DNA from: Micromonospora sp. CPCC 205371
Lineage (GTDB): Bacteria; Actinomycetota; Actinomycetes; Mycobacteriales; Micromonosporaceae
Reading direction: 5' to 3'
DNA: 48,212 nucleotides
NCBI RefSeq assembly: GCF_026130045.1
Contig: NZ_JAIBNX010000031.1
Span: forward strand, 1 to 48,212
Both the position numbers and the translations under genes were made by a program. Positions 10,031 through 44,123 of the stretch are shown here, piece by piece (position 1 is the first letter of the stretch; every line of letters starts with the position of its first letter). A model generated the notes under the pieces. It searched no databases and was not told where the DNA came from. It worked only from the letters and a program-made list of their open reading frames with translations.

Positions 10031-10080
10031 TGTGCCTCCTGGTTCGCTCGGTCGGGCGGCGCTAAAGGCGACTCCCTCGC

Positions 10081-24872: not shown

Positions 24873-25949
24873 ATGACCTCTCCCACTTCTAGTGGGCCCG
24901 TGCGGGCACAGCTCCTGCGCTCACTGCTCGCTCTCGCCGTACTCGTGCCGGTAGGAGTGCTCTTCGGGCAGTTGTGGCAGGAGCAGTCCGACCGGCTGTC
25001 ATTCGCCGCCAAAGAGCGCGACGGCATCGAGTACCTCACCACTCTGAGCCAGGTGACCACCGCGCTGACGGACGCGCAGTCCGACGCCATCGCCGGCGGC
25101 GAGGTCGGCCAGACCGCCCTGGCACGCGCGGTGGACGCGGCGAGCGCCGTGGACGCGCGACTCGGCGACGACCTGCGCACACACGACCGCTGGTCCGGAC
25201 TACGGGCGAAGATCGAAGCGCTTCCCACGGCCGCCAGCGCGGACAAGGAGGACCTGTACACGGCGTACGGCGAGGCAAGCGACCTGCTGCTCGCCCTGTA
25301 CGGCAAGGTCCGCGAGAACTCGCAGCTCATCCGGGACCCCGAGGGCGACACGTACTTCCTCCAGGACGGCGCCGCCGAAGAGCTTCCCGAATCGGTGGTC
25401 GCCGCGGGCCGGTTCGCCGACCTCGTGGTGCTCGCTGCCAGCCGGCCGGCCGCCGAGCGCGCCCAGGCGATCGCCGAGCTGACCGCCGCCCGGCAGGGCG
25501 TGCTCGACCCCGCAAGCGACCTCGCGGACGGCCTCCAGTCCGCCGTGGACAGCACGGACAGCCGGACCATGGGTGGCAACCTGCTGAGCCGCCTCGACCG
25601 CTTCCGGCGCGGCATGGACGTACTCGCCAACTCGGCCGGCTCGCTGACCGGACGGGCCAACCTCCCCCGCGCCGACCAGCTGACCGCCGCGCGGGCGGAG
25701 GTGCAGACGGCCGCGACGGAGCTGTCCAACGCCATCCTCGCGGAGCTCGACCTGCTGATCGGAGACCGGATCTCCGGCCTGAGGACCGAACGCTGGCTGG
25801 CCATCGGCACCTTGGCGGTGGTCGTGCTCCTGGCGGCTTCACCGATGGCGATCGCGCTCGCGGATGGGCGGAAGCGACGCCGCAAACCGTTCAGCGGCGT
25901 GCCGAACTCCGTGCCTTCCGAGTGGGAGCGTGCCGGTGCTGCTCGGTAG
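24873..25949 (+). CDS. Two-TM extracytoplasmic sensor protein preceding the conservon
   Basis: 358 residues. Short cytoplasmic N-terminus, TM1 about 14-33 (SLLALAVLVPVGVLFGQLW), a long helical extracytoplasmic domain about 35-300 built like a four-helix-bundle or chemoreceptor-type sensor (LTTLSQVTTALTDAQSDAIAGG and the DPEGDTYFLQDGA segment), TM2 about 304-326, then a basic tail ending in RKRRRKP. There is no HAMP or kinase domain. GGAGG precedes the ATG. Its last 14 bases overlap the start of the sensor kinase gene, implying tight co-translation; it probably forms a complex with CvnA (inference). I do not recognise it as a standard conservon member. Confidence 0.8.
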   Translation: MTSPTSSGPVRAQLLRSLLALAVLVPVGVLFGQLWQEQSDRLSFAAKERDGIEYLTTLSQVTTALTDAQSDAIAGGEVGQTALARAVDAASAVDARLGDDLRTHDRWSGLRAKIEALPTAASADKEDLYTAYGEASDLLLALYGKVRENSQLIRDPEGDTYFLQDGAAEELPESVVAAGRFADLVVLAASRPAAERAQAIAELTAARQGVLDPASDLADGLQSAVDSTDSRTMGGNLLSRLDRFRRGMDVLANSAGSLTGRANLPRADQLTAARAEVQTAATELSNAILAELDLLIGDRISGLRTERWLAIGTLAVVVLLAASPMAIALADGRKRRRKPFSGVPNSVPSEWERAGAAR

Positions 25950-28785
25950 GCTACGCATCCGCGGCAAGCTCGCCGTACTCGTCACGATCCCGCTCCTGCT
26001 CGTCGCGGCGCTGACCGTCCCGCTGGTCTTCAACCGGGTCGGACTCGCCACCCGCGCCGCCGAGACCGCCCACGCGGTCAGCCTCGGCAGCGACGTCGGT
26101 GCCCTCGTCGGCGACCTGCAGCAGGAACGACTCCTATCGGTCGGCTACCTGCTCGGCGTCGTCGACCAGAGCGCCCTGGTGCTACAGACCACCACGGTGC
26201 ACGACCGGATCGCCGACGTGCTCGCTGACCATGCCGACCACGAAGATCTCGATGGCACGCTCTCTTCGGCGATCGACTTCGTCGGCGACCTCGATCCCGT
26301 GCGTGCCTCCGTGCTGGCCGGCACCGCTCGGCCGACCGAGGTGGTGACCGGGTTCAGCAAGGTCACGACCCGGCTCATCAACGCGCTCCGGCTGATCGAC
26401 AGCGTCGACGTGGAGACCGCCGAAGGCCGGCAGGTGGTCGCACTTGACGCGGTGCTGCGCATGAACGACCTGATCAGCGCCGGTGCCACATACATGATCA
26501 TCATGGTGGGTGAGCGCGGCAACCCCGGCGCGCTCATGGCGTACACCGCTACCCTCGCCGCGCTGCAGGCCACCGTGTCCCGCTTCGAGGGATACGCCAC
26601 GCCGGACCAGAGCGCCCTGTACGGCCTCGTGCAGCAGGCGCTCGGCCAGCGTGTCGGTGAGGTCTTCGCCGCGGGTACCGTGGCCGACCCCGCCAAGGCG
26701 CTGGCGCGATTCAACCTGGCGACGCTCTTCCCGTCGCTGGAGTCGTTCATCTCGCTGGGCCGGTTCGTCGAACGAAAGATCGTCACCGACGTCACCAACC
26801 TGGTCAACGACCAGGAGCAGGCGGTCCTCGCGACCGCGTACGGCGCCATCTCGCTCGCGATCCTGGTATTCATCGCGGTCGTGCTGATGAGCGTCGCGGT
26901 GGCGCGCGCCGTGGCCCGACCGCTGAGCCAGTTGACCGTATCGGCCGACCGCGTGGCCACCGTCGCCGAGACCGAACTGCGACGGGTCGCCGACGAGGAC
27001 GCCCACGACGACGACGAACCGGTGCATCTCGAACCGGTCGAGGTGCACTCCAACGACGAGATCGGCGAGCTGGCGCGCGCGTTCGACCGGGTACAGATCA
27101 CCGCCGCCCGCCTCGTCGAACGGCAGGTCTCCAGCCGCCGGAACGTGGCGCAGATGTTCGGGCACGTCGGCCGCCGTACCCAGAACCTGGTCGGCCGCCA
27201 ACTCGCCCTCATCGACCGCCTGGAGCAGCAGGAGACCGACCCGCAGCGGCTCCAGCAGCTGTACCGGCTCGACCACGTGTCCAGCCGCCTCCGGCGAAAC
27301 GCGGGCAGCCTCGTGGTGCTCTCCGGCACAGTCGAGCCACTCGGTGGAGCCGGTGGCGGAGCCGACGAGTTCACCAGCCCGCTGCCTCTCGGCGACGTGG
27401 TCCGGCTCGCACTCGGTGAGATCGAGGAGTTCACCCGGGTCGACGTGCAGGTACCGGACGGGCCGGCCATCACACCCGCGGTCACCGCCGACCTCATCCT
27501 GCTGCTCGCCGAGGTGATGGAGAACGCCACCGTGTTCTCGCCGCCGCACACCCGGGTCACCGTCACCGCCGTCGCCGCCGGCCAGGGCCTGCGGCTCCAG
27601 GTTGTCGACCACGGCCTCGGCCTGACGCCGGAACGGATGGCGGAGGAGAACGACCGGTTGGCTCACCGCGAGCGGCTCGACCTGGCCCCGACCGAGGTGC
27701 TCGGCCTCTTCGTGGTCGGCCGGCTGGCACGCAAGCACGGGCTCGGCGTTGCGCTCACCAACACCCCGGGCGGTGGTGTGACGGTCACCGTCGACATCCG
27801 GCCCGAACTGATCGTGCACCACGCCGCGCCGGCGATGGTGCCGCCCGCCCCGCCGAAGCCACCACAGCCGGCGCGGGGGCTGGCACCGGTGCGGCAGCTG
27901 CACGCGCCGGCTCCGCCCGCCGAGTTGCAGCCCGCGCCCGTGGCCACACCCATAGGCGCACCCGCGGGGCCCCCGCTCGACCGCGCCGTGGCCCGGGCGA
28001 TCGTGGCGACCGCCAACGAGCAGGACCCGGCGTTCAACGTGGTCGCGCTCAACCGCGCGACCCGCACCATCGGCTCGGGGCGTTCCTGGAACGCATTCGC
28101 GCCGTCCCGTACCCCGGCGTCGGTCCCCCCGCCGACGCCGGCTCTACCGCCGGCACCACCACCCGCGGCCCCTCCGGTCGTGCCCGCGGCTCCACCCGCC
28201 GCGGTTCCCCTGGCGCCCGTGCCGGGAGCGGCTCCACCACCACCGCCGGTGCCCGTGGTGCCAGGCCCCATCCCGCCAGCGCCCGTGCCTGGCGGGCCGG
28301 CGACGGCACCGGTATCGCCCGGCGCCGTAGGCACCGCGCCCGTCGTCCCGGCCGCGGCTCGCCTCGCGTCCCTGACGCCGTCATCCCTACCCGCTGGGCT
28401 GCGCCAGCGGGTGCCCGGCGCGCAACTGCCGGAAGGCGTGTCGGTCGCGCCACCAGCGGCGGCACCGCTGGCGCCGTCGGGCGAGGCCGCCGCGTCGGCA
28501 CGCGCGCTGGTCGAAGAGTTCGAGGCAGGGGTACGCCGAGCGCAGGCGGCCAATGTGGACACGACGGAGAAACCGGCCGTCATCCAGCAGCCAGAGCCCG
28601 GTCCACGCCCCTCCTTGACCCGCCGAGTACCGGGTGCGACGCTCCCCACGTCGTTGCCACCGAGCCGACCCGCGCAAGCACTACCCGATCAGTGGTCACC
28701 CGATCCTGAAGCGGCCAGAGACCTGATCGAGGAGTTCGAGTCGGGCGTCGCGCGCGCCCTCCAGGAAGGACCACAGCACCCATGA
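25936..28785 (+). CDS. cvnA: Conservon sensor histidine-kinase-like protein CvnA
   Basis: 949 residues from GTG 25936, which has GGGAG seven bases upstream. TM1 about 12-30, an extracytoplasmic nitrate/nitrite-sensor-type helical domain (VGDLQQERLLSVGYLLG), TM2 about 300-322, HAMP, and an atypical kinase core: LYRLDHVSSRLRRNAGSL replaces the H-box region, LLLLAEVMENATVFSPP is the N-box, and VVDHGLGLTPERM and HGLGVALTNTPGGGVTVTV are G-boxes. About 350 residues of Pro/Ala-rich tail follow, with two copies of RVPGAxLP plus (L)EEFE(A/S)GVxRA. In Streptomyces, CvnA assembles with CvnB-D at the membrane in a complex likened to G-protein receptors. Overlaps the preceding and following genes. Confidence 0.92.
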   Translation: MLLGRLRIRGKLAVLVTIPLLLVAALTVPLVFNRVGLATRAAETAHAVSLGSDVGALVGDLQQERLLSVGYLLGVVDQSALVLQTTTVHDRIADVLADHADHEDLDGTLSSAIDFVGDLDPVRASVLAGTARPTEVVTGFSKVTTRLINALRLIDSVDVETAEGRQVVALDAVLRMNDLISAGATYMIIMVGERGNPGALMAYTATLAALQATVSRFEGYATPDQSALYGLVQQALGQRVGEVFAAGTVADPAKALARFNLATLFPSLESFISLGRFVERKIVTDVTNLVNDQEQAVLATAYGAISLAILVFIAVVLMSVAVARAVARPLSQLTVSADRVATVAETELRRVADEDAHDDDEPVHLEPVEVHSNDEIGELARAFDRVQITAARLVERQVSSRRNVAQMFGHVGRRTQNLVGRQLALIDRLEQQETDPQRLQQLYRLDHVSSRLRRNAGSLVVLSGTVEPLGGAGGGADEFTSPLPLGDVVRLALGEIEEFTRVDVQVPDGPAITPAVTADLILLLAEVMENATVFSPPHTRVTVTAVAAGQGLRLQVVDHGLGLTPERMAEENDRLAHRERLDLAPTEVLGLFVVGRLARKHGLGVALTNTPGGGVTVTVDIRPELIVHHAAPAMVPPAPPKPPQPARGLAPVRQLHAPAPPAELQPAPVATPIGAPAGPPLDRAVARAIVATANEQDPAFNVVALNRATRTIGSGRSWNAFAPSRTPASVPPPTPALPPAPPPAAPPVVPAAPPAAVPLAPVPGAAPPPPPVPVVPGPIPPAPVPGGPATAPVSPGAVGTAPVVPAAARLASLTPSSLPAGLRQRVPGAQLPEGVSVAPPAAAPLAPSGEAAASARALVEEFEAGVRRAQAANVDTTEKPAVIQQPEPGPRPSLTRRVPGATLPTSLPPSRPAQALPDQWSPDPEAARDLIEEFESGVARALQEGPQHP

Positions 28786-29213
28786 GCAGCTCTCTCCAGC
28801 TCAGCCCCGAGGCACAGACCTTCAACTGGCTCCTGGACTCGTTCACGTCCAGCACGGCCGGCGTACGCGAGGCGATCGCGGTCTCGTCCGACGGCCTGCT
28901 GATGGCCAAGTCGAACATCGCCGACCGGGCGAACGCCGAACGGCTCGCAGCTGTGGTCTCCGGCATGACCAGCCTCGCCGGTGGTGCGGCCACCTGGTAC
29001 TCGCTGGGCGGACTCAACCGGGTGGTGATCGACATGACCGGTGGCTACCTGCTGGTGACCTCGATTAGCGCGGGTTCGGTGCTCGGCGTGATCGCCGACC
29101 GCACCGCCAGCCTCGGCACCGTCGCGTACGAGATGACCCTGTTCGCCAGCCGGGCCGGCGGCGCGCTCACTCCCCGCCTGATCGCCGAGCTGAAGAACGC
29201 CGCTCAGTCGTGA
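28782..29213 (+). CDS. cvnB: Conservon roadblock/LC7-domain protein CvnB
   Basis: 143 residues, a single roadblock/LC7 domain: NWLLDSFTSSTAGVREAIAVSSDGLLMAKS opens it (TAGVREAIAVSSDGLLMA), and RVVIDMTGGYLLVTSISAGSVLGVIAD closes the sheet (GGYLLVTSISAGSVLGV). Roadblock proteins such as MglB act as GAPs or scaffolds for small Ras-like GTPases; here the partner is the GTPase two genes downstream. Start overlaps cvnA stop (ATGA) and stop overlaps cvnC start (GTGA). Confidence 0.95.
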   Translation: MSSSLQLSPEAQTFNWLLDSFTSSTAGVREAIAVSSDGLLMAKSNIADRANAERLAAVVSGMTSLAGGAATWYSLGGLNRVVIDMTGGYLLVTSISAGSVLGVIADRTASLGTVAYEMTLFASRAGGALTPRLIAELKNAAQS

Positions 29214-29650
29214 GACCGTCGTCGCCCGAGGACGGGCCGGCACCGGCCCGCATCCGCCCGTACCTGAGCCAGTCCGGGTTGGGACCGGCGGCCGAGGCGG
29301 CGCCCAGCGGGCTGCGGCCGTTCGTGCTCACTTCGGGCCGGGTCGACGGTGTCGACCCGAACATCGGCCTGGAGACCCAGGTCACCGCGCGGCCGGACGG
29401 TGCGGCCCGGGGCGGGATCGCCGTGTCGAACCTCGCACCCGAACTGCGTACGATCCTCGCGCTGTGCGCCGAGCCGGTCTCGGTCGCGGAGATCTCCGCC
29501 CGTGCACGCCTCCACCTCGGCGTGACCCGCATCCTGGTCGGCGACCTGCGCGCCGCCGGCTACCTCGACGTACACGCGCGGGACGCCGCGCGCCCATACG
29601 ACCCCGAAACCATCATGCGAGTGATCCGTGGACTACGTGCCATCTCCTGA
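29210..29650 (+). CDS. cvnC: Conservon DUF742 protein CvnC
   Basis: 146 residues of the DUF742 family: RIRPYLSQSG, RPFVLTSGRV, the VSNLAPELRTILALCAEPVSVAEISA helix pair (LAPELRTILALCAEPVSVAE) and LHLGVTRILVGDLRAAGYLDVH, which looks like a winged helix used for protein contact rather than DNA. GTG overlaps the cvnB TGA. Its last 23 bases overlap the GTPase gene. Role in the complex: known in Streptomyces to bind the other Cvn proteins; mechanism not established. Confidence 0.94.
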   Translation: MRPSSPEDGPAPARIRPYLSQSGLGPAAEAAPSGLRPFVLTSGRVDGVDPNIGLETQVTARPDGAARGGIAVSNLAPELRTILALCAEPVSVAEISARARLHLGVTRILVGDLRAAGYLDVHARDAARPYDPETIMRVIRGLRAIS

Positions 29651-30230
29651 GCCGGCGGCGCCGGCCGGTTCCGTGCCCATCCCGGTGAAGATCGTGGTCG
29701 CCGGCGGCTTCGGCGTGGGCAAGACCACCACCGTTGGTTCCATCAGCGAGATCTCGCCGCTGACCACCGAGGCCGAGATGACCTCGGCCGGCGTCGGCAT
29801 CGACGACCCGGGACCGGCCACCGGCAAGACCACGACGACCGTCGCCATGGATTTCGGCTGCGTCACCATCGACCGCAGCCTGAAGCTGTACCTGTTCGGC
29901 ACGCCCGGCCAGTCGCGGTTCGGCTTCATGTGGGACGACCTCGCGCACGGCGCGCTGGGCGCGCTGGTCGTCGTCGACAGCGGTCGCCTCGACGACTGCT
30001 ACCCGGCCGTGGACTACTTCGAGCGGCTCAAGCTGCCGTTCGTGGTGGCCGTCAACGCGTTCGACGGGCGCCTCGCGCACGATCTGGACGCGGTACGGTG
30101 GGCGCTGGCCATCGATGAGAGGATTCCGATCGTCGCGTTCGACGCCCGAAACAAGCTCTCCGTCCGCGATGCTCTGCTCGTCCTACTCGATCGCGCGCTG
30201 GCTGACGCCGTCCGCAGCCAACACGTCTAG
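29628..30230 (+). CDS. cvnD: Conservon small GTPase CvnD
   Basis: 200 residues, MglA/Ras-like GTPase. G1 GGFGVGKTT (26-34), G3 FGTPGQSRFGF (TPGQ at 92-95, with TPGQ in place of DxxG, usual for the family), G4 VNAFD (142-146). The family insert EMTSAGVGIDD and ATGKTTTTVAMDFGC is present. Acts as the switch of the membrane-associated conservon complex; CvnB is the presumed regulator. GTG at 29628 lies inside cvnC. Confidence 0.95.
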   Translation: MDYVPSPEPAAPAGSVPIPVKIVVAGGFGVGKTTTVGSISEISPLTTEAEMTSAGVGIDDPGPATGKTTTTVAMDFGCVTIDRSLKLYLFGTPGQSRFGFMWDDLAHGALGALVVVDSGRLDDCYPAVDYFERLKLPFVVAVNAFDGRLAHDLDAVRWALAIDERIPIVAFDARNKLSVRDALLVLLDRALADAVRSQHV

Positions 30231-30242
30231 GAGGTTGCCGGG

Positions 30243-30692
30243 GTGCGAGGTGGACTCGACGACGCGCTGGAGCGGCTGGCCCGGCGTGATCAGCTGCGCA
30301 AGCGCGTCGCGCCGTCCGACGGCTCCTCCGCCAGCAACGGCTCGTCCGGCGGGATCGGCTCGTCGGGCGGCATCGGCGAGGTGGTCGAGGCGGTGCGGCG
30401 GATCGTCGAGCGCCATCCTGAGCTTTCGGTGACCGTGTACGGCGAAGAGGGCGAGGTCAGCGCCGAGATCCGGATCGCGCGCCGGGAAGGCGTCGTGGAG
30501 GCGACCGTGGTGGCCGCCGAGGGCCCGATCTCCGCGACGGCATCGGTGCCGGCGCCGCCGCCCGCGCTGCCCGGCCCGCCGGCATGGCCGCTCGCGACCG
30601 ACAGCACCCCCGGCTCGGCCGGTGCGGCGGCACGCCTGGCCGAGCTGATCCGGCAGGACCCATCCCTGCTCGCCGGCCCCGAAGATCGCTGA
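30243..30692 (+). CDS. Small protein of unknown function attached to the conservon
   Basis: 149 residues, not recognised. An N-terminal charged helix (GLDDALERLARRDQLRKRV), a low-complexity stretch with SSGGIG twice in tandem, a central alpha/beta segment of about 55 residues (VVEAVRRIVERHPELSVTV, then alternating strands EGEVSAEIRIARREGVVEATVV), a Pro/Ala linker, and a final helix LAELIRQDPSLL. AGGAGG eight bases before the GTG and only 12 bases after cvnD place it in the operon. It could be a fifth subunit or an adaptor; no membrane segment or signal peptide is visible. Confidence 0.82.
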   Translation: MRGGLDDALERLARRDQLRKRVAPSDGSSASNGSSGGIGSSGGIGEVVEAVRRIVERHPELSVTVYGEEGEVSAEIRIARREGVVEATVVAAEGPISATASVPAPPPALPGPPAWPLATDSTPGSAGAAARLAELIRQDPSLLAGPEDR

Positions 30693-30714
30693 CGACATGC
30701 CCTAGCCTGTAGCG

Positions 30715-32628
30715 GTGCCGATGATCTCGCGCTGGGTGGCGGTCCTTCTCGCGTCGATGATCGGTGCCGCCCTGGTCGCGGCGCCCGCCCGAGCAGACTC
30801 GCCCATGCGCCTCGACGGGCAGATCACCGACGAGGTGGGTGCGCTCGATGGCCGCGAGCCGGAGGTCACCGCCGCGCTCGACCGGCTGCGCGACGCGAGT
30901 GGGCTCCAGCTCTTCGTCGTCTACGTGAGGTCCTTCGACGGTACGCCGGCGCAGGAGTGGGCCGACGAGACCGCGACCCGCAGCGACCTCGGCCGGCGCG
31001 ACGCGCTCCTCGCCGTCGCCACCCGTGACCGGGCCTACGCGTACGCGTTCGACGCCGCCTACCCCCTGACGGACGCGCAGCTCGACGAGGTGGCCGCCGC
31101 CGCCATCGAGCCGGCGCTGCGCGAAAACGACTGGGCCGGCGCGGCGATCGGCGCCGCCGACGGGTACCGCGCGGTGCTCGCCGGCCAGCCGGTACCCGCG
31201 CCGGCGATCACGCCGGGCGACCCCGATCCCGGTGACGGCGGTGGCAGCTCCGTTCTGGGCACGGTGGTGTGCCTCGGCATCACCGCTGTAGTCGTCGCGC
31301 TCGTCGTGTGGCTGGTGATCCGCTCGCGCCGGCGCCGCCCGCAGGCCACCCCGGCTGGCCCGCCGCCCATAAGCACAGCCGAGCTCACCACACGCGCCAA
31401 CGCGCTGCTCGTCGAGCTCGACAACGACCTGCGCGCCAGCGAGCAGGAACTGTCGCTCGCCACCGGCCGGTACGGCGCCGAGGCGACCGCCTCGTTCACC
31501 GCGGCGCTGGAAAGCGCGCGTCAGGACGTGGCCGAGGCGTTCCGGCTGCGGCTCACGCTCGACGAGACGCCCGGGCCCGACGAGCCTGCCCGGCGCGCGG
31601 CGCTCGAAGAGATCATCCGCCGGTGCGAGGCCGCCGACCAGCGGCTGGACGCGGAGTCGGAGGCGTTCGACGAGCTGCGCGGCCTGGAGTCTCGGATCGA
31701 GCCGGAGCGCCAGGAACTGTCGGAGCGCCGCGCCGCTGCGGAGGCGAAGCTGCCGGCGACGGGCGCGACCATCGAGGCGCTGCGGGCCAGATACACCGGG
31801 CCGCTGGTGGCGGGCCTGCTGGGAAACGCGGACCAGGCGCGCGAGCGGCTCGACTTCGCCGCGGCCACGCTTTCGGACGTCCAGCCCGCCGACCCACCCC
31901 GTGCGGCGCTCACCTTGCGGGCCGCCGAAGAGGCGGTCGCCCAGGCGGAGACGCTGATCGACACCGTCGTGCGTGCACAGTCCGATCTGGACACTGCCCG
32001 TGCCGGGATCGACGCGCTGCTGGCAGAGGTGGAGTCGGAACTCGCCGCCGCCCCACCGGATGCCGCTGCGGTCATTGCCGCTCAGCAGGCCGTGGCGTCG
32101 ACCCGTGCGGCACTCGCCCAGCCCACCATGGATCCGCTGTCGGCGGTACAGGCGCTGGAAGAGGCCGACACGGCGCTGGACCGCGCGCTCGCGGAGCAGC
32201 GCGACGCCGCCGAACGGGCCGCGCGGGCCCGCACCATGCTCGGCCACGCCCTGCCGGCGGCGCGCGCCGAGGTGTCGGCTGCCGGAAGCTTCATCGCGAC
32301 CCGGCGCGGCGCGGTGGCCAGCAGGGCGCGGGCCTCGCTCGGCGAAGCACAGCGGCTTCTCGCCCGCGCGGAAGCGCTCGCCACCACCGATCCGGCGACG
32401 GCCGTGGCCGACGCCCAGCGCGCTCAGCAACTCGCCGCCGAAGCCGGCAGGGCTGCACAGTCCGATGTGCACAGTTGGTCGTCGGGAAGCACCAGTGACC
32501 TGCTGACCGGCATCCTGCTGGGCGGCATCATGTCCGGCGGGGGCCGCCGGTCGGGTGGCGGCTTCCGGGGTGGCGGATTCGGTGGCAGCGGCAGCCGCGC
32601 GCGGCGTACCGGTGGCGGCCGCTTCTGA
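30715..32628 (+). CDS. TPM-domain membrane protein with long coiled-coil cytoplasmic part
   Basis: 637 residues. Signal-like helix 1-27 (ending APARA), TPM (Psb32/MOLO1 phosphatase-like) domain about 33-155 with LQLFVVYVRSFDG and RDALLAVATRDRAYAYAF, a Gly/Pro linker, a membrane helix about 180-203, basic stop-transfer RSRRRR, then about 390 residues of Ala/Glu/Arg-rich helices likely forming coiled coils, and a C-terminal Gly/Ser/Arg tail (SGGGRRSGGGFRGGGFGG) as in many TPM proteins. Topology: TPM domain outside, coiled coil inside. GTG 30715 or ATG 30721. Follows the conservon gene by 22 bases on the same strand; a functional link is not shown. Confidence 0.88.
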   Translation: MPMISRWVAVLLASMIGAALVAAPARADSPMRLDGQITDEVGALDGREPEVTAALDRLRDASGLQLFVVYVRSFDGTPAQEWADETATRSDLGRRDALLAVATRDRAYAYAFDAAYPLTDAQLDEVAAAAIEPALRENDWAGAAIGAADGYRAVLAGQPVPAPAITPGDPDPGDGGGSSVLGTVVCLGITAVVVALVVWLVIRSRRRRPQATPAGPPPISTAELTTRANALLVELDNDLRASEQELSLATGRYGAEATASFTAALESARQDVAEAFRLRLTLDETPGPDEPARRAALEEIIRRCEAADQRLDAESEAFDELRGLESRIEPERQELSERRAAAEAKLPATGATIEALRARYTGPLVAGLLGNADQARERLDFAAATLSDVQPADPPRAALTLRAAEEAVAQAETLIDTVVRAQSDLDTARAGIDALLAEVESELAAAPPDAAAVIAAQQAVASTRAALAQPTMDPLSAVQALEEADTALDRALAEQRDAAERAARARTMLGHALPAARAEVSAAGSFIATRRGAVASRARASLGEAQRLLARAEALATTDPATAVADAQRAQQLAAEAGRAAQSDVHSWSSGSTSDLLTGILLGGIMSGGGRRSGGGFRGGGFGGSGSRARRTGGGRF

Positions 32629-32655
32629 AGGTCATCCGGCCATTCGAATATTGAG

Positions 32656-32661
32656 TACGAT
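32656..32661 (+). promoter_or_regulatory. -10 box of the P450 gene (likely leaderless transcript)
   Basis: TACGAT, eight bases before the ATG at 32670; no ribosome-binding site lies between. The spacing fits a transcript beginning at or next to the start codon, common in actinobacteria. The -35 is weak. Confidence 0.4.
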
Positions 32662-32669
32662 GGGTGTCC

Positions 32670-33872
32670 ATGACTGATACTCAGCGTGTCGTGCACGCCT
32701 ACCCGTTCAGTCCACCCGACCGGTTCAAGCTCGATCCGTTCTACGCTGAGCTGCGCCGGCGCGAGCCACTCACCCGCGTGCGGATGCCGTACGGCGAAGA
32801 GGCTTGGCTCGCCACCCGCTACGCCGACGTGCGCACGGTGCTCGGCGACGCGCGGTTCAGCCGGGCCGCGAGCGCAGACCGCGACGAGCCCCGCATCTCC
32901 CCGCGCAAGCTCGAAGCCGGCCTCCTGCTGATGGATCCGCCCGAGCACACCCGGCTGCGCCGCCTCGTGGCTAAGGCATTCACCGCGCGCCGTGTCGAGC
33001 AGCTCCGCCCGCGCACCCATGAGGTCGCCAACGAGCTCGTCGACCGCATGATCACCGCCGGCCCGCCCGCCGACCTCGTGGAGCGTTTCGCCACACCGCT
33101 GCCCATCACGGTCATCTGCGAGCTGCTCGGCGTGCCCGTCGAAGACCAGGACCGGTTCCACGTCTGGTCCGAGGCGGTCGTCTCCACCACCTCGCTGTCC
33201 GTCGAGCAGATCGCCGGATACATCCAAAACCTCTTCGCGTACATGCGAGGCCTCATCGCGGAACGGCGCCGCGAACCCACCGAAGACCTCATCAGCGCGC
33301 TGGTGCGAGCTCGCGACGAAGATGACTCCCGGCTCACCGAAGACGAGCTGGTGCGGCTCCTCACCGGTCTGCTCGCGGCGGGGCACGAAACCACCGTCAC
33401 GCAGATTCCCAACTTCACGTACGTCCTGCTCACCAACCCCGACAAGCTCGCCGAGCTGCGCGCCGACCCCGATCTGGTGCCCGCCGCCGTCGAAGAGCTG
33501 ATGCGATACGTGCCGCTCGGTGTGGCGTCGTCGTTCGCCCGGTACGCCACCGAAGACGTCGAGCTGGGCGGCGTGCTGGTGCGCGCGGGCGAGCCGGTCA
33601 TCGGGTCGCTGTCGTCGGCCAACCGCGACGAAGAGGTGTTCCCCGACCCGGACTCGCTCGACTTTAGACGGTCGACCAACCCCCACATCGGCTTCGGCCA
33701 CGGCGCCCACCACTGCATCGGCGCGCAACTCGCGCGCATGGAGCTACAGGTGGCCATCGACGTGCTGGTGCGGCGCTTCCCCCAGTTGCGATTCGCCGTC
33801 CCCGAAAAGGAGTTGGAGTGGAAGAGCGGCATGCTCGTACGCGGCCTGAAGCGGATGCCGGTGGCGTGGTAA
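32670..33872 (+). CDS. Cytochrome P450 (bacterial CYP105/107-like)
   Basis: 400 residues. Heme loop FGHGAHHCIGAQLAR with the cysteine ligand near 349; I-helix LLAAGHETT (AGHETT about 237-242) for O2 activation; K-helix ExxR in EELMR; MDPPEHTRLRR in the B'-C region. All marks of a soluble class I bacterial P450 that needs a ferredoxin, supplied by the overlapping next gene. A GTG two codons upstream is also possible. Some Streptomyces conservons include a P450 gene; here it is about 2.4 kb downstream of cvnD, so association is possible but not proven. Substrate unknown. Confidence 0.95.
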   Translation: MTDTQRVVHAYPFSPPDRFKLDPFYAELRRREPLTRVRMPYGEEAWLATRYADVRTVLGDARFSRAASADRDEPRISPRKLEAGLLLMDPPEHTRLRRLVAKAFTARRVEQLRPRTHEVANELVDRMITAGPPADLVERFATPLPITVICELLGVPVEDQDRFHVWSEAVVSTTSLSVEQIAGYIQNLFAYMRGLIAERRREPTEDLISALVRARDEDDSRLTEDELVRLLTGLLAAGHETTVTQIPNFTYVLLTNPDKLAELRADPDLVPAAVEELMRYVPLGVASSFARYATEDVELGGVLVRAGEPVIGSLSSANRDEEVFPDPDSLDFRRSTNPHIGFGHGAHHCIGAQLARMELQVAIDVLVRRFPQLRFAVPEKELEWKSGMLVRGLKRMPVAW

Positions 33873-34093
33873 GCGACCATTGGCGGATCTCCGTCGACGG
33901 CGACACCTGCATCGGCGCGGGTATCTGCGCCGGCACCGCACCGGCGGCGTTCCGGCTCGTAAACGGCGTATCCACGCCGATACACGAAACCGTCGACGCC
34001 GACGACGCGGTGCGAGCGGCCGCTGAATCCTGCCCGGTCGAGGCGATCACGGTGCGAGACAGGAAAGGCGCCGTGATCGCCCCCGAGCCGTAG
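33866..34093 (+). CDS. [3Fe-4S] ferredoxin, P450 redox partner
   Basis: 75 residues from GTG 33866, overlapping the P450 stop by seven bases. Cysteines 15, 21 and 56 in DTCIGAGICAGTAP and ESCPVEAI form the CX5C...CP pattern of single [3Fe-4S] ferredoxins of actinobacterial P450 systems; the fourth ligand position is Ala/Gly, which explains the 3Fe cluster. Translational coupling to the P450 argues for electron delivery to it. No ferredoxin reductase is in the window. Confidence 0.93.
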   Translation: MVSDHWRISVDGDTCIGAGICAGTAPAAFRLVNGVSTPIHETVDADDAVRAAAESCPVEAITVRDRKGAVIAPEP

Positions 34094-34152
34094 GTCCCTT
34101 CCGAGTGAGTGGTTGCCATTCGCAGCAACCGCACATTTCAGGTAGGCGAGAG

Positions 34153-34179
34153 TTGCAAGGGTCCACGCCTTGCTACCTT
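34153..34179 (+). promoter_or_regulatory. Promoter with inverted repeat ahead of the HIT-methyltransferase cassette
   Basis: TTGCAA (34153-34158) and TACCTT (34174-34179) could be -35 and -10 with a 15-base spacer. Inside lies a perfect inverted repeat GCAAGG-GTCCACG-CCTTGC (34155-34173), placed to block the promoter when bound. TSS would be about 35 bases before the ATG at 34223. Confidence 0.45.
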
Positions 34180-34222
34180 GACCTCAGATGCGGTCAACGA
34201 CTATCCATCGGAGAGACGAGCC

Positions 34223-34921
34223 ATGCCTTCGGTGCTCCCCGGTGTTTCCACGCACGACTGTCTCTTCTGTCGTGTACATGATCTGCCCACACCGCGACTG
34301 GCCTGGCACGACCGTCCCTTGATCCGAAACGACGGCGTTGGTGTCGTGATCCCAGCAATCGGCGCCCTGGTGCCGGGCTATGTCCTCGTGTCGCCCGCGC
34401 TGCACAAGAGTTCCGTCCAAGAGTTGCCAGGTCACGTCGCGGAGCGGTTCATCGCATTCTTGATCGCTGTCATTGACGAGGTTGAGGCGATCTTCGGCCC
34501 TTCAACAGTCTTCGAGCATGGGTCGTGTCGATCGGAGGAGCGTCGCAGGTCAGCCTGCATCACCCATTGCCACATACACATCGTCCCTGGGACCTTCTCG
34601 TTTGACAGCCTAGGGCTCCCAGTACGCGCCTACCGGGAGATGTCAGACCTCCTGTCGGCGCCAACTGAGGAGAGAACCGATGGCTACCTGATGTATCGGG
34701 AGCCCGGTGGGCCGGTCTGCTATGCACCGGATGCCGGCGTCTCCCAGTACTTTCGACGCCAAATCGCACGGACCCTCGGTTGCGAAGAAGAGTGGGATTA
34801 CGCGCTCTTTCCGCATTGGCCCAATGTCCACGCGACACAGGCGGGCCTGTCGCGCTCGACACTAACTACGACCAACTCCTATCAGATAGCAGGCGTACCA
34901 AATGCGGCTGACCTCCACTAA
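34223..34921 (+). CDS. HIT-superfamily nucleotide hydrolase/transferase-like protein
   Basis: 232 residues from ATG 34223, GGAGAG eight bases upstream. CLFC at 13-16 gives a zinc knuckle as in Fhit/Hint/GalT relatives, VVIPAIGALVPGYVLVSP (41-58) is the HIT core strand pair, and ITHCHIHIVPG carries the histidine triad His115-x-His117-x-His119. FEHG (97-100) is also typical. HIT proteins bind nucleotides and cleave phosphoanhydride or phosphoramide bonds, or transfer nucleotidyl groups. The C-terminal 100 residues are family-specific and unrecognised. GC is lower than in flanking genes. It overlaps the methyltransferase gene by 20 bases, the first of a three-gene plus-strand cassette. Confidence 0.85.
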   Translation: MPSVLPGVSTHDCLFCRVHDLPTPRLAWHDRPLIRNDGVGVVIPAIGALVPGYVLVSPALHKSSVQELPGHVAERFIAFLIAVIDEVEAIFGPSTVFEHGSCRSEERRRSACITHCHIHIVPGTFSFDSLGLPVRAYREMSDLLSAPTEERTDGYLMYREPGGPVCYAPDAGVSQYFRRQIARTLGCEEEWDYALFPHWPNVHATQAGLSRSTLTTTNSYQIAGVPNAADLH

Positions 34922-35582
34922 GACTCCCGACCAGCTTGGCTTCTGGAACGAGTGGCATCGCGCTCGTGGCGCCACCGGCCAGGACCTCGTGCATCTGGAG
35001 TCCCGGAGTACCTTTTTGCGCGGACTCGAACCACTGGGAAAACGCCTGACGGTACTTGATCTCGGATGTGGCGAGGGGCACGACGTCGTCGCCCTGACCA
35101 GCGCGGGCCACCGAGTGTGCGGTATTGATTTCTCGCCGGTGGCCATCGCAAAAGCACAGCGAAGCATTCCATGGAGGCGGCGATTCTGGCCAGTGCGACC
35201 CCTACTACGCGTGGCCGATATCGCGCAACGACTTCCATTTACCGACGAGAAGTTCGATGGCGTTTTCTCGCATCTTGCACTTCACTATTTTCAGGATCAG
35301 GTGACGCGTTCCGTCTTCCAGGAGATCGCCCGAGTGACACGCCCCGGAGGCATACTGGTCTTCACCGTCAAATCGACGGCCGATCCATACTTCCGAGTAG
35401 GCGATCAACTCGACGACCGTGTGTTCTGCCGAAAAGGACATGTTCGGCATTTCTTTACGGCCGAATACATCGAGACTCTACTCGACGGTTGGAAGATCGA
35501 CGACATCCAGCCGCGCGAGGGCCACTACGCAAGCCCCGAGAAGAGCGCCTTTCTGATAGCTAGGGCCCACCGACCGGGCTGA
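34902..35582 (+). CDS. Class I SAM-dependent methyltransferase
   Basis: 226 residues. Motif I VLDLGCGEGHDV (51-62), motif II ICGID-like VCGIDFSPVAIAKAQ, post-motif II RVADIAQRLPFTDEKFDGVFSHLALHY (DIAQRLPFTDEKFDGVFS is the Methyltransf_11 signature) and motif III VTRPGGILVFTVKS. Small-molecule O-, N- or C-methyltransferases of this type are common; the substrate is unknown. Its start lies inside the HIT gene, so both are co-translated. Codon use and about 53-60% GC in several lines differ from the roughly 70% of the neighbourhood, which suggests horizontal acquisition of the cassette. Confidence 0.9.
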   Translation: MRLTSTKTPDQLGFWNEWHRARGATGQDLVHLESRSTFLRGLEPLGKRLTVLDLGCGEGHDVVALTSAGHRVCGIDFSPVAIAKAQRSIPWRRRFWPVRPLLRVADIAQRLPFTDEKFDGVFSHLALHYFQDQVTRSVFQEIARVTRPGGILVFTVKSTADPYFRVGDQLDDRVFCRKGHVRHFFTAEYIETLLDGWKIDDIQPREGHYASPEKSAFLIARAHRPG

Positions 35583-35607
35583 TCGTAGGCAACGACGGGG
35601 AGGACCG

Positions 35608-36912
35608 TTGGAGCGGATCGATCTCAAGAACGTCGACGACTGCGTGGATCGTGCTCTCAACCTGCTCCGCCGCACCTACCGAAGCACCAGCCAGGATGTA
35701 GGTGGTTGGTACCACAACCTCGACAGCGCGGCACCGGGGCCCTCCGCAACGAGCGTGGGAATGGCCAGCTTTCTACTCCATGGCCGTCCTTTTGACCAGA
35801 TCAATCACTGTCTCGCGTTTCTTCGAGAGCGCCAGATCCAATCCGCTGACTCGCTGATCGACGGCGGATGGGCTGTCAACACGAGCTTCGGGCAGCCAGT
35901 CTCTGAAGCCACCGCCTTGGTCGCGCGGCTGCTCTCGGTAACCCATACCTCCTTGACGCCCGTTGGTCCGGACGCTGGCCGGGCGTACAGGTGGCTCATC
36001 AACAACCAGAACGACGATGGGGGTTGGGGATCTTTCAAGGGTCAGGAGTCGCGCGTCTGGTTGACCGCCATGGTCATCCGGGCGCTGGCCGAGCTCGATC
36101 CTTATTGCCTGGCTCTGCGCCGCGGAACCGAGTGGTTGACCAAGCATCGAGACCCTGAGTCGCGAGCATGGGGTGAACGGCCCTCGCAGCCGCCTACCGT
36201 CACTCACACGGCGTACGTAGTGACCGCACTCGTCGATAGCCGGCTCGGGCTGCGCGAGCAGGCGACGGCGGAGGCGATCACCGCTGGTTTCGACTGGCTG
36301 CACGCCAATCTCGATCCGAGGGCCCTCCACGACGACCGGGCTCGGACGGAGAGTTACAACGTCACCAAGGAGACTTCCGACGGCGTGATACTCACCTGGC
36401 AGACTACCGTTTGGCATCACGCCCTTCCCTTCGCGCTCGGCGCACTCGTTCGCCAGCCACAGGGACGCGACATCGAGCGGATCTGCCGCGCGGTACAGAC
36501 GGTGGTCGACACGCAGTTGCCGGACGGCCGGTGGCCGAGCGCGGACAGTGCCGCCGCCCTTTCGGTATGGACAATATGGCCGTTTCTCGAGGCGCTATCG
36601 GATGTCAGGTCTCGACTCTGGAGCGACGCTGGCTACTCAGTGCTCGCGCTCACCGACGATGCCTTGGTGCTGCGCCAGGCAGGTCAGCGGCGGTCCCTCG
36701 GCTGGCTGTTCTGGCGAGTGTTCCGCGCGGGATCGCAGCGCTGGCTTGCCAAGCGATGGGCCACCGCGATCCTACTCCTCATGATCGTCATCGGTGGACT
36801 GCTGGTTCTTCTGGACCGGCTGGGTTGGCAGGAGTTCGCTCTCGGCCTCCTCTTCCCAGTCGCATTGGTCGTTGTTCAGGTGGCCATGTCCCGAAGCTTC
36901 CCGGGTGAGTGA
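35608..36912 (+). CDS. Terpenoid-cyclase/prenyltransferase-like alpha-toroid protein with two C-terminal membrane helices
   Basis: 434 residues from TTG 35608, with GGGGAGG four bases upstream. At least four QW-type repeats: SQDVGGW (28-34), SLIDGGW (82-88), NQNDDGGWGSF (133-143) and QLPDGRW (303-309), spaced as in squalene/hopene cyclases and prenyltransferase beta subunits. I see neither the DXDD acid of class II cyclases nor a DDXXD or zinc site, so catalysis is doubtful; the toroid may bind a lipid or peptide. Two hydrophobic helices (386-402, 409-426) anchor the C-terminus in the membrane with the toroid in the cytoplasm. Starts 25 bases after the methyltransferase. Its 3' end overlaps the convergent NDT-like gene by 37 bases. 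Confidence 0.83.
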   Translation: MERIDLKNVDDCVDRALNLLRRTYRSTSQDVGGWYHNLDSAAPGPSATSVGMASFLLHGRPFDQINHCLAFLRERQIQSADSLIDGGWAVNTSFGQPVSEATALVARLLSVTHTSLTPVGPDAGRAYRWLINNQNDDGGWGSFKGQESRVWLTAMVIRALAELDPYCLALRRGTEWLTKHRDPESRAWGERPSQPPTVTHTAYVVTALVDSRLGLREQATAEAITAGFDWLHANLDPRALHDDRARTESYNVTKETSDGVILTWQTTVWHHALPFALGALVRQPQGRDIERICRAVQTVVDTQLPDGRWPSADSAAALSVWTIWPFLEALSDVRSRLWSDAGYSVLALTDDALVLRQAGQRRSLGWLFWRVFRAGSQRWLAKRWATAILLLMIVIGGLLVLLDRLGWQEFALGLLFPVALVVVQVAMSRSFPGE

Positions 36913-37364
36913 GCGACGACAGCAGTGAGGACGTCGAGGGCCTCCACACGTTCGCGAACCACGGCGGTCGCGTGATAGCGCAGCCAAACTCGTCGTTCCA
37001 ACCCAGTATCACCGACCCAGACCACGGCCGGAATTCGCCACGTGTGGGCGTATGTCAGCTCGCAGACACAACCGACGTAGATCCTGTTGGCAAGCGACAT
37101 GTCGATCAGCAACGCGTCCGAGCGGCGAAGGATGTTCAAATCGGCCCGCACCAAGTGCGCGACGTTGGCGTCAAAGTCGTCGTCGGGCGGCAAGGCCGCG
37201 GCAGCGACCGGATCGACCATGTCCAGCCCACGTATGGCTAGGGCGGCTGCCATCTCCTGGCCTCCGGCAACGACGACGCTTCGATCGAGGTCGTCCACTG
37301 CTCTTGCGAAATAGATGATGGGTCGCGGGCGGTTCGACGCATGAAGAGGCGGTTGGACGATCAC
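36876..37364 (-). CDS. Nucleoside 2-deoxyribosyltransferase-like enzyme
   Basis: 162 residues. RPIIYFARAVDD (14-25) is the first strand and loop of the family, RADLNILRRSDALLIDMS (73-90) the middle strand with conserved Asp, and YVGCVCELTYAHTWRIPAVVW (split: YVGCVCELTYA, RIPAVVWVG) contains Glu102 at the position of the catalytic nucleophile in nucleoside deoxyribosyltransferases and related nucleotide N-glycosidases. Likely cleaves the N-glycosidic bond of a (deoxy)nucleoside or nucleotide, or transfers the base. GTG 37364 overlaps the TGA of a small upstream gene (GTGA), which fixes the start. It faces the HIT-methyltransferase-toroid genes and overlaps the last by 37 bases. Confidence 0.8.
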   Translation of the reverse strand: MIVQPPLHASNRPRPIIYFARAVDDLDRSVVVAGGQEMAAALAIRGLDMVDPVAAAALPPDDDFDANVAHLVRADLNILRRSDALLIDMSLANRIYVGCVCELTYAHTWRIPAVVWVGDTGLERRVWLRYHATAVVRERVEALDVLTAVVAHSPGKLRDMAT

Positions 37365-37534
37365 AACGACGGGCCTCCGGCATCATGATCGCCAGAACGC
37401 GGCATCGGAACGCAGGCCCGCGCCGGCCGGATGGGCACGACCCCACGTCGCCACAACTCCATCGCTAGCTGCGGGCCGAATCTCTCGATCGCCCAGGCCG
37501 ATGGTCCGGCAACGGTGTCGACACTCACCGACAT
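37361..37534 (-). CDS. Small protein (57 aa) translationally coupled to the NDT-like gene
   Basis: Frame from ATG 37534 (GTG 37537 or 37540 also possible) to TGA 37361-37363, which overlaps the GTG of the next gene. The product begins MSVSVDTVAGPSAWAIERF and continues GPQLAMELWRRGVVPIRPA; composition and G/C at third positions look coding, while the competing frame shifted by one does not. One amphipathic helix (AWAIERFGPQLAMELWRRG) is predicted by eye, then a Pro/Gly tail. Function unknown; coupling suggests a partner or leader of the NDT-like enzyme. Its start abuts the stop of the secreted-protein gene. Confidence 0.55.
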   Translation of the reverse strand: MSVSVDTVAGPSAWAIERFGPQLAMELWRRGVVPIRPARACVPMPRSGDHDAGGPSL

Positions 37535-37539
37535 CACCA

Positions 37540-38244
37540 CTATCCGCAGTCGAGTCGTAGCGGAGCGTCATTCATCATGGCAGAACTGCGGCCTTTGGAG
37601 AAGTTCGGGCCTCCCGGCACGAGTGGAGGCCCGGAGCCCGATGTCTCTCCGGGGCGCGCCTTGGGGGCCCCGCGCATCGTGAACTTGCCGGGCTCGCGCA
37701 CCTGCTCGAACGCGGCGTTGTTGAGCAGCACGCAGCTGCCGGAGGGCCCGGTCACCTCGACGACGACCGAGCGGTTGTTGTCCACATTGGTCACCCGCAG
37801 GCGCGTGCCGGCCGGGAACTGGTTGCTGGACGCGGCCGGCGCGCCCGCCTCACCGGAAAGGGTGACACTGGACCCGTTGCAGACCCGCTCGCCGTTGCCG
37901 GCTGGGGCCGCAGGGGTCGTCTCCGGTGCTTGCGGCTGCGCCGGGGCCGGTGCCGCTGGGTTGTCGGCGGCCACGTTGGCGGTACAGCCTGCGGTCGCTC
38001 GGCGTTGTTGGATGAGGTCGACGACGGCCTGGCGGTTGGCGATTCTCGCGGCAGACAGAGCGTCCGGGTTGCGCTGCTGGTCGGCGATGAAGTTGAGGTT
38101 GTTGCGCAGCGCGGTATCCAGCCCGGCGCACGACTCGCCCGCTTGGCCCATGCCGGTGCCGACCGCCAGCGCTCCACCCAGTACGACGGCCGACCCGGCG
38201 AGCAGGGCGATCCGGCGTCGACTCCAAGCAACCCGTCGCATCAT
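37540..38244 (-). CDS. Secreted protein with RlpA/double-psi-barrel-like domain and unusual C-terminal tail
   Basis: 234 residues from ATG 38244 (AAAGG about ten bases upstream). Residues 1-35 form a twin-basic-start signal sequence (RRVAWSRRRIALLAGSAVVLGG). A helical segment with two cysteines (SCAGLDTALRNNLNFIADQQ to TAGCT), a Pro/Ala linker, and a beta domain (VCNGSSVTLSGEAGAPAAS, FPAGTRLRVTNVDNNRSVVV, SGSCVLLNNAAFEQVREPGKF) resembling the double-psi barrel of RlpA-like proteins. After REPGKF the last 46 residues are Gly/Pro/Arg-rich, contain a 9-bp DNA hairpin and look unlike the barrel's usual ending, suggesting the natural 3' end was replaced. Confidence 0.72.
   Translation of the reverse strand: MMRRVAWSRRRIALLAGSAVVLGGALAVGTGMGQAGESCAGLDTALRNNLNFIADQQRNPDALSAARIANRQAVVDLIQQRRATAGCTANVAADNPAAPAPAQPQAPETTPAAPAGNGERVCNGSSVTLSGEAGAPAASSNQFPAGTRLRVTNVDNNRSVVVEVTGPSGSCVLLNNAAFEQVREPGKFTMRGAPKARPGETSGSGPPLVPGGPNFSKGRSSAMMNDAPLRLDCG
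37606..37633. repeat. 9-bp inverted repeat in the 3' end of the secreted-protein gene
   Basis: CGGGCCTCC (37606-37614) and GGAGGCCCG (37625-37633) around ten bases. The left arm plus GGCA recurs as CGGGCCTCCGGCA at 37370-37382, just before the NDT-like start. Could be a terminator swallowed by the reading frame or a recombination scar. Confidence 0.5.
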
Positions 38245-43747: not shown

Positions 43748-44123
43748 TGGTGGAGGTGCCGGGAATCGAACCCGGGTCCTTCGGCGCCTTGACAGGGCTT
43801 CTCCGAGCGCAGCTCGCTGTGCCTCTACTCGGCCCCACCGATCACGCGAGCGAGTCGGTGTGACGGGCCCAGTCGCTGATTAATCTCGCCGCACAAGCCC
43901 CGCGACCGGGCTCGATTGGCCAGCCTTCTAGCTGATGCCGGTTAACTGGGTCGAAGGCGCTCCCAGACCGACAGACTCGCTACTCGCCTCAGGCGGCGAG
44001 AGCGAAGTCAGCGCGATTGTTCTTGGCGCTTATTGGTTTCCGACGACCGATTCTCGAGACGACGTCGGCTTCCTCGGCTCGCTTCCCCTGTCGTAACGGA
44101 CGAAGTCGAAACCAGTCACCCCC
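43748..44123 (-). ncRNA. ssrA: tmRNA (transfer-messenger RNA)
   Basis: 376 bases including the encoded CCA. The 5' end GGGGGTG-ACTGGTTTCGAC pairs with the 3' end CACCTCC-ACCA to form the acceptor; the T-arm GACCCGGG-TTCGATT-CCCGG (43-base 3' part) is standard. The tag reading frame at 44027-43989 encodes AKNNRADFALAA and stop TGA, matching actinobacterial tags ending in ALAA. It rescues stalled ribosomes together with SmpB, encoded 2.2 kb upstream on the same strand. A 15-bp hairpin follows. Confidence 0.97.

Follow-up and report, generated by a model that had tools for sequence, protein, structure and literature searches.

Within a 48,212-nucleotide window of Micromonospora sp. CPCC 205371 (the whole stretch of DNA analysed, contig NZ_JAIBNX010000031.1), four genes lie between the end of a ferredoxin gene at 34093 and that of a convergent SCO2207-family gene at 37540 (Table 1). 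They run from 34223 to 37364 in the order HIT hydrolase, S-adenosylmethionine (SAM)-dependent methyltransferase and membrane (alpha/alpha)6 toroid (TOR), facing an NDT-like N-glycosidase. With a probability of about one half, we read them as a cassette gained by horizontal transfer and belonging to a HIT-toroid system not described before. Judged by sequence and fold comparison, a squalene-cyclase-fold toroid with a predicted C-terminal hydrophobic anchor is encoded together with a HIT-family protein, and these two form the core of the system; NDT and methyltransferase are not core.

Table 1 Genes of the cassette and its boundaries in the window.
Feature	Position	Strand	Basis or remark
HIT-family hydrolase, 232 amino acids	34223..34921	+	profile match to FHIT, E 6e-9
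Class I SAM-dependent methyltransferase, 226 amino acids	34902..35582	+	Pfam Methyltransf_11, 7e-22
Membrane-anchored (alpha/alpha)6 toroid TOR, 434 amino acids	35608..36912	+	hydrophobic segments from residues 384 and 410
NDT/DNPH1-like N-glycosidase, 162 amino acids	36876..37364	-	converges on TOR, 37-nt overlap
Small open reading frame, 57 amino acids	37361..37534	-	overlaps the NDT start by 4 nt; unlikely to be a component
Left boundary: ferredoxin gene	33866..34093	+	Pfam Fer4_13
Right boundary: SCO2207-family protein gene	37540..38244	-	NCBIfam NF058669, 8e-76

The cassette is distinct in base composition, with the window's own flanks as the reference for both GC content (GC) and codon comparison. 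Its GC is 62.2% against 71.3% in the flanks, and the 3.2-kb tile starting at 34101 is the lowest in the window (62.0%; tile mean 70.1%, standard deviation (sd) 2.4). GC at third codon positions (GC3) is 0.655-0.756 in the four genes and averages 0.884 (sd 0.052) in the 40 other called genes (z -2.5 to -4.4), one of which falls below the cassette genes at 0.615. The low-GC block that an earlier note on this DNA had described was thereby borne out. The same note had claimed overlapping, converging gene groups, which holds for the four genes (20 nt between HIT and methyltransferase, 34902-34921; 37 nt tail-to-tail between toroid and NDT, 36876-36912) and is not confirmed for a fifth, the small open reading frame proposed as a coupled protein. 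By tblastn over 110 loci, this frame was matched in the window's own DNA only, and its codon-position GC (0.67/0.62/0.72) is not clearly coding-like; a five-gene system was rejected, the frame being without relatives in the other loci. A promoter of the cassette's own likewise found no support, a sigma-70 scan returning 0 sites against 0.7 expected, although actinobacterial promoters may escape such a scan.

The same order and orientation recurred in genome G045 (locus L017), Paractinoplanes rishiriensis (L033), P. bogorensis (L034), Dactylosporangium sucinum (L035) and G1041 (L187), and G1043 (L186) carries the same genes as D. sucinum L035. These copies occupy other loci with differing surroundings, in scattered soil bacteria. 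Arrangement was constant among six intact cassettes even though their identities were 41-78% (most pairs 41-60%), and pairwise identities of the four proteins co-varied (r 0.67-0.91; 15 non-independent pairs), in keeping with the earlier claim of one unit. Tail-to-tail toroid/NDT overlaps were found at all four called ends elsewhere (L017, 30 nt; L033, 12; L034, 15; L035, 44). Other copies are damaged: the toroid is split over two frames in G1055 (L188), methyltransferase and toroid matches are incomplete in G987 (L189), and only pieces of HIT and toroid are left in G036 (L018), at the same locus as in G045. All nine copies have lower GC than their flanks, by 1.2 to 13.9 points.

A conservon-like run adjoins the cassette (window 24900-34093), comprising sensor kinase, roadblock, DUF742-like, GTPase, P450 and ferredoxin genes, names that, the ferredoxin excepted (Pfam), are given by eye. 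G985 (L185), of the same genus, retains this run beside a cassette-free site, where ferredoxin and SCO2207-family genes stand 79 bp apart; in G1039 and G1009 the SCO2207-family gene likewise adjoins this upstream run, but P450, ferredoxin and cassette are absent there. Of 131 genomes of the family, 6 gave a toroid match (one weak), and the five further genomes of the window's genus gave none; such absences are not certain, as these searches scored only 4 to 21 first-look candidates per genome. The SCO2207-family gene was matched in 61 of the 131, weak matches counted. The cassette-free site and the depressed GC agree with the acquired unit proposed earlier, and the cassette was apparently acquired horizontally.

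A genome scan with two peptide patterns gave 78 toroid loci, 42 full-length (L033-L074) and 36 distant. HIT genes adjoin 41 of the 42 full-length toroids (start-to-start <1.4 kb), only L051, truncated at the end of its contig, being without one, whereas a profile search found none within 5 kb of the 36 distant toroids. The profile comprised 14 proteins, 13 of them from the 42 loci. The toroid was therefore not found mostly apart from its partner, an outcome the earlier note had named as contrary to a common system. Three of the 42 loci have methyltransferase and NDT, two in Streptomyces have TOR-HIT-methyltransferase, four combine TOR, HIT fused to methyltransferase and adenosine deaminase, one archaeal locus has HIT-TOR, and 32 are of an Actinomadura type (31 with HIT, 31 with Nudix, 30 with PfkB); methyltransferase was matched in nine. 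Partners vary, and the majority are nucleotide-acting (NDT, adenosine deaminase, Nudix with PfkB, DUF1599), methyltransferase also being common. In a 17-row toroid tree, the NDT, Nudix and adenosine-deaminase types each formed one group (support 91/90, not starred; 100/100; 100/99); the branch leading to the archaeal row was very long.

The archaeal pair is from Ca. Methanoperedens sp. BLZ2 (L074), where HIT (9290-9994) directly abuts TOR (9995-11296) and the pair is followed by DUF1599 ('Nucleotide modification associated domain 1', E 8e-49) in two matched stretches (L074:9290-12156). Its HIT protein, absent from the 14 profile rows, matches the profile at E 3e-31; the contig's neighbouring genes look archaeal by eye, and this was the only archaeal case found. 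At class level, toroids were matched in 5 of 394 genomes: the window's, a Spirillospora-like one (L029) and three weaker (L030-L032). BLAST was less sensitive than the profile, missing the HIT gene of L029 that the profile found in L041, a contig of equal length. Phylum-level profile matches (35 of 396 genomes, at most about 53 bits besides the window's) were taken as general HIT proteins and left unused. Separately, a 595-amino-acid toroid-containing protein in L030:6954-9697 and L031:7768-10538 adjoins a gene with, by eye, a radical-SAM-like CxxxCxxC start.

TOR has the alpha/alpha toroid of the squalene-hopene cyclase type, with squalene-hopene cyclase and drimenyl diphosphate synthase as its nearest folds; sugar epimerases and AprG share the fold. 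Class II terpene cyclases use DxDD as their general-acid motif. Ten of 11 toroids lack it, and the single instance (L029, residue 255) is not matched in any other toroid; TOR as an ordinary terpene cyclase was rejected on this ground. Conserved toroid residues are H36, E100, D137, R149, H200 and E248, which would be expected around the pocket. These features suggest a squalene-cyclase-type toroid recruited, without the cyclase acid motif, into nucleotide-processing cassettes.

By sequence, the HIT protein carries the HxHxH triad in a HIT domain (H115, H117, H119, within HCHIH), with CxxC near the N-terminus, an EHG motif and a C-terminal extension; C16, H61, E98, H99, G100, H115, H117, H119, Q175, R178 and W191 are invariant in a 14-row alignment. 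Its gene most likely starts at ATG 34223 rather than GTG 34109, because the alignment of relatives begins there. The methyltransferase has D-glucose O-methyltransferase as its best PDB profile match and is fused to HIT in four relatives.

The convergent NDT/DNPH1-like protein diverges further from its known relatives, with a Pfam Nuc_deoxyrib_tr match below the curated cut-off (22.3 against 28.8 bits) and a weak PDB profile match (E 0.08). It has the NDT fold with catalytic Asp and Glu: DNPH1 Y24 and D80, with a numbering offset applied, align with Y18 and D75 of the cassette protein, and E102 was located through the family motif. Catalytic roles have been described for DNPH1 Y24, D80 and E104 (PMC10603095, excerpt). 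By sequence, the cassette protein retains the family's catalytic residues, and Tyr18, which is Phe in the ribo-specific MilB, hints at a deoxyribonucleotide substrate.

We propose that HIT and TOR handle a nucleotide-derived compound, because the pair is constant and its partner enzymes change and are mainly nucleotide-acting; the accessory enzymes would set the identity of that compound. The enzymes of the cassette may work successively on a single small molecule derived from a nucleotide. Here the N-glycosidase would cleave the base from the sugar-phosphate of a nucleoside 5'-phosphate, and the methyltransferase would modify its substrate or product. HIT would hydrolyse a nucleotide ester or phosphoramidate in a maturing or switching-off step, and the anchored toroid would bind or convert the product at the membrane. 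As the earlier note had proposed, the whole may make, sense or destroy a nucleotide-derived molecule. Of its single membrane nucleotide system, the acquired unit, the mainly nucleotide-type enzymes and the membrane member stand; the small reading frame does not, and the core is narrower, HIT plus toroid without NDT and methyltransferase.

Less certainly, we infer that the NDT type is an accessory conflict module of antiphage-like character, because its distribution is patchy, it is mobile, one genome has it truncated and another has it within a restriction island. Defence neighbours were clear in G1041, and suggestive in G987 and near L037. The G1041 cassette (GC 56.1%, flanks 70.0%) has a DUF234 ATPase (candidate defence PDC-S27) and a DrmMI/Eco57I-type methylase on one side and an AAA protein and McrC (McrBC) on the other. 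In G987 the neighbours are HSP70, AAA (IetA-like match), radical SAM, DUF2997 and DUF1257 genes, and a type I methyltransferase gene lies about 1.2 kb beyond the Streptomyces cassette L037. The neighbours of L036 and L070 gave weak CARF and Csa3 matches only. The cassette methyltransferase itself matched only methyltransferase-containing PADLOC models (best mad2, 71 bits).

Several results weigh against an acquired nucleotide system with a conflict role. Up to E 0.1, no PADLOC model matches the HIT, toroid or NDT protein of the window, and chosen neighbours of the G045, P. rishiriensis, P. bogorensis and G1055 cassettes gave no match in a scan of 20 neighbours in all (3 from other-type toroid loci, those of the window and D. 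sucinum left out, no background rate). No relative of TOR or NDT was confirmed in viral contigs and no TOR relative was found on the plasmids searched, so a phage or plasmid origin of the toroid was rejected; NDT had three weak partial matches in phage records. The 41/42 linkage is partly by construction of the HIT profile, although each match is a real neighbouring gene. Because 32 of the 42 loci are one fixed Actinomadura-type locus, with normal GC3 and neighbours we take by eye to be aroE and alaS, the count amounts to about five arrangements, and this fixed setting suits metabolism or house-cleaning. Orthologous cassettes at one locus with normal GC, also named by the earlier note as contrary evidence, were thus nearly found for the Actinomadura HIT-toroid pair, but with other partners (Nudix, PfkB). 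Linkage is also one-sided: tblastn placed a toroid near 4 of 15 order-level HIT matches (249 genomes), and BLAST with the window's proteins found no HIT beside the diverged toroids L030-L032. Methyltransferase profile matches lay within 5 kb in 2 of the 36 distant-toroid loci, and the archaeal member is a single, long-branched case. Finally, the phosphate-binding serine of DNPH1 and MilB is, counting from the glutamate, Tyr96 in the cassette NDT, so its substrate may be other than a simple 5'-monophosphate.

On a wider reading, possible but doubtful, a prokaryotic nucleotide-signal system of a new class would span an archaeon and actinobacteria and have HIT and the membrane toroid as its ancient core. 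Its plug-in enzymes (NDT, methyltransferase, adenosine deaminase, Nudix, PfkB and DUF1599) would set which modified nucleotide is made or destroyed, with the toroid as membrane receptor or effector.

The chief rival, though unlikely, is nucleotide house-cleaning, in which HIT-toroid and partners would rid the pool of damaged or non-canonical (deoxy)nucleotides, much like the enzymes DNPH1, Nudix and MazG, and the toroid would dock the enzymes at the membrane. We kept it in this place because Actinomadura has the fixed, high-GC3 chromosomal version near aroE and alaS, and the Nudix, DUF1599, PRA-PH, dCTP-deaminase-like, adenosine deaminase and DNPH1-like NDT proteins resemble a house-cleaning repertoire. 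House-cleaning, however, has no call for a methyltransferase (9 of 42 loci) or a membrane toroid, and the NDT type is mobile and truncated, with restriction neighbours in G1041.

A smaller chance still attaches to a small biosynthetic cluster whose product would resemble a nucleoside or terpenoid nucleoside, tuberculosinyl adenosine being a comparison; the toroid would then be a true cyclase or transferase, with the remaining enzymes tailoring the nucleoside. The toroid's nearest folds would suit it, as would a Rhizobium HIT relative in a run of kinase, Glycos_transf_3, dioxygenase and methyltransferase genes, and the NDT fold is common to MilB, an enzyme of mildiomycin biosynthesis (PMC4081090, excerpt). 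DxDD is not shared in the 11 toroids, however, no prenyltransferase, transporter or regulator is among the four genes, and a fold also found in sugar epimerases and AprG does not specify isoprenoids. That independent accessory genes share a mobile block by chance, with no common pathway, is very improbable: components vary between lineages and HIT relatives occur without a toroid, but HIT stands beside 41/42 toroids against 0/36 controls, order is kept at about 50% identity and HIT is fused to methyltransferase in four loci.

Weaker HIT relatives were found on five plasmid records, neighbourhoods that merely illustrate the nucleotide theme. On a Parabacteroides distasonis plasmid (L114:2238-7524), a row of a 539-amino-acid ThyX, a 670-amino-acid AAA-domain protein, HIT, PRA-PH pyrophosphohydrolase and DHFR looks like a thymidylate-related system; the N-terminal part of the AAA protein compared with the toroid at an hhalign probability of 2.2%. 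A Streptomyces plasmid (L111) has a HIT relative with a dCTP-deaminase-like protein and cysteine desulfurase, the L113 gene table being similar, and a Caulobacter plasmid (L115) has one with pyrophosphohydrolase- and methyltransferase-annotated proteins. Rhizobium leguminosarum pRL1 carries a ten-gene run (L112:1173-9329) that is a possible nucleoside-like metabolite cluster, including HIT, thymidylate kinase, PRPP-synthetase-like, PfkB, SDR and RidA-like (both by eye), class-V aminotransferase, Glycos_transf_3, methyltransferase and PhyH dioxygenase genes.

Elsewhere, in two genomes of the window's taxonomic order, a compact block (L021:3094-7315 and L022:3332-7665) holds cytidylate kinase (tested in L021), a HIT-like protein, methyltransferase, a 255-amino-acid protein without a Pfam match, an AIRS-domain enzyme (tested in L022) and a second HIT. 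In G215 (L019:6646-10249), Nudix, a small kinase, HIT and a 408-amino-acid protein with a C-terminal hydrophobic stretch meet a convergent methyltransferase; the 408-amino-acid protein may be a diverged toroid (hhalign probability 36.5%). Also in the window, a tmRNA gene at 43748-44123, with tag AKNNRADFALAA, is ordinary.

The HIT-toroid core has an appreciable chance of being a new class. PADLOC, Pfam and NCBIfam showed no family specific to the system, and the combination appeared in no title or abstract opening among the open-licence literature matches listed, so within these sources the earlier statement that no described system has this combination stands. The work delimits a testable gene pair not described before, HIT with membrane toroid. 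If the conflict reading is true, bacterial immunity would gain a nucleotide chemistry and a kind of membrane receptor that are both new; if false, the pair would indicate a so far undescribed step in nucleotide metabolism that Actinomadura retains throughout.

Among known systems, class II terpene cyclases (squalene-hopene cyclase, drimenyl diphosphate synthase) are alike in fold, but their DxDD is not shared by the toroids here, and TOR is a single, HIT-linked toroid with hydrophobic C-terminal segments. The SCO2321 family membrane protein (NCBIfam NF053823) is weakly matched by the toroid (33.5 bits against a cut-off of 300). The nucleoside 5'-monophosphate N-glycosidases DNPH1/RCL and MilB/BlsM resemble the cassette NDT in fold, aligned Tyr and Asp, and motif Glu; they differ in that its sequence match is weak, the phosphate-loop serine is, by counting, not kept and no ThyA-like partner is among the four cassette genes.

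Nucleotide-centred conflict systems with DRHyd, TIR and SLOG enzymes were reportedly described by Burroughs et al. in 2015, a study that PMC7159879 cites. DRHyd domains are predicted in conflict systems (PMC7159879, excerpt). We take DRHyd to be the NDT superfamily, and the systems with DRHyd, TIR and SLOG are alike in placing an NDT-superfamily enzyme beside others in variable actinobacterial cassettes. The four cassette genes, in contrast, include no STAND, MoxR or vWA, and their core is HIT and toroid. As whole words, HIT, squalene and toroid are all absent from the PMC7159879 main text. Nor do HIT domain, histidine triad, squalene, prenyltransferase or deoxyribosyltransferase occur in the main text of PMC13092281, in which the nucleotide-modifying genes MazG, nucleotide kinase, dUTPase and NMAD are predicted as defence by DefensePredictor (excerpt). 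The enzyme repertoire of those predictions is similar to that of the HIT-toroid partners, with DUF1599/NMAD1 following the archaeal pair.

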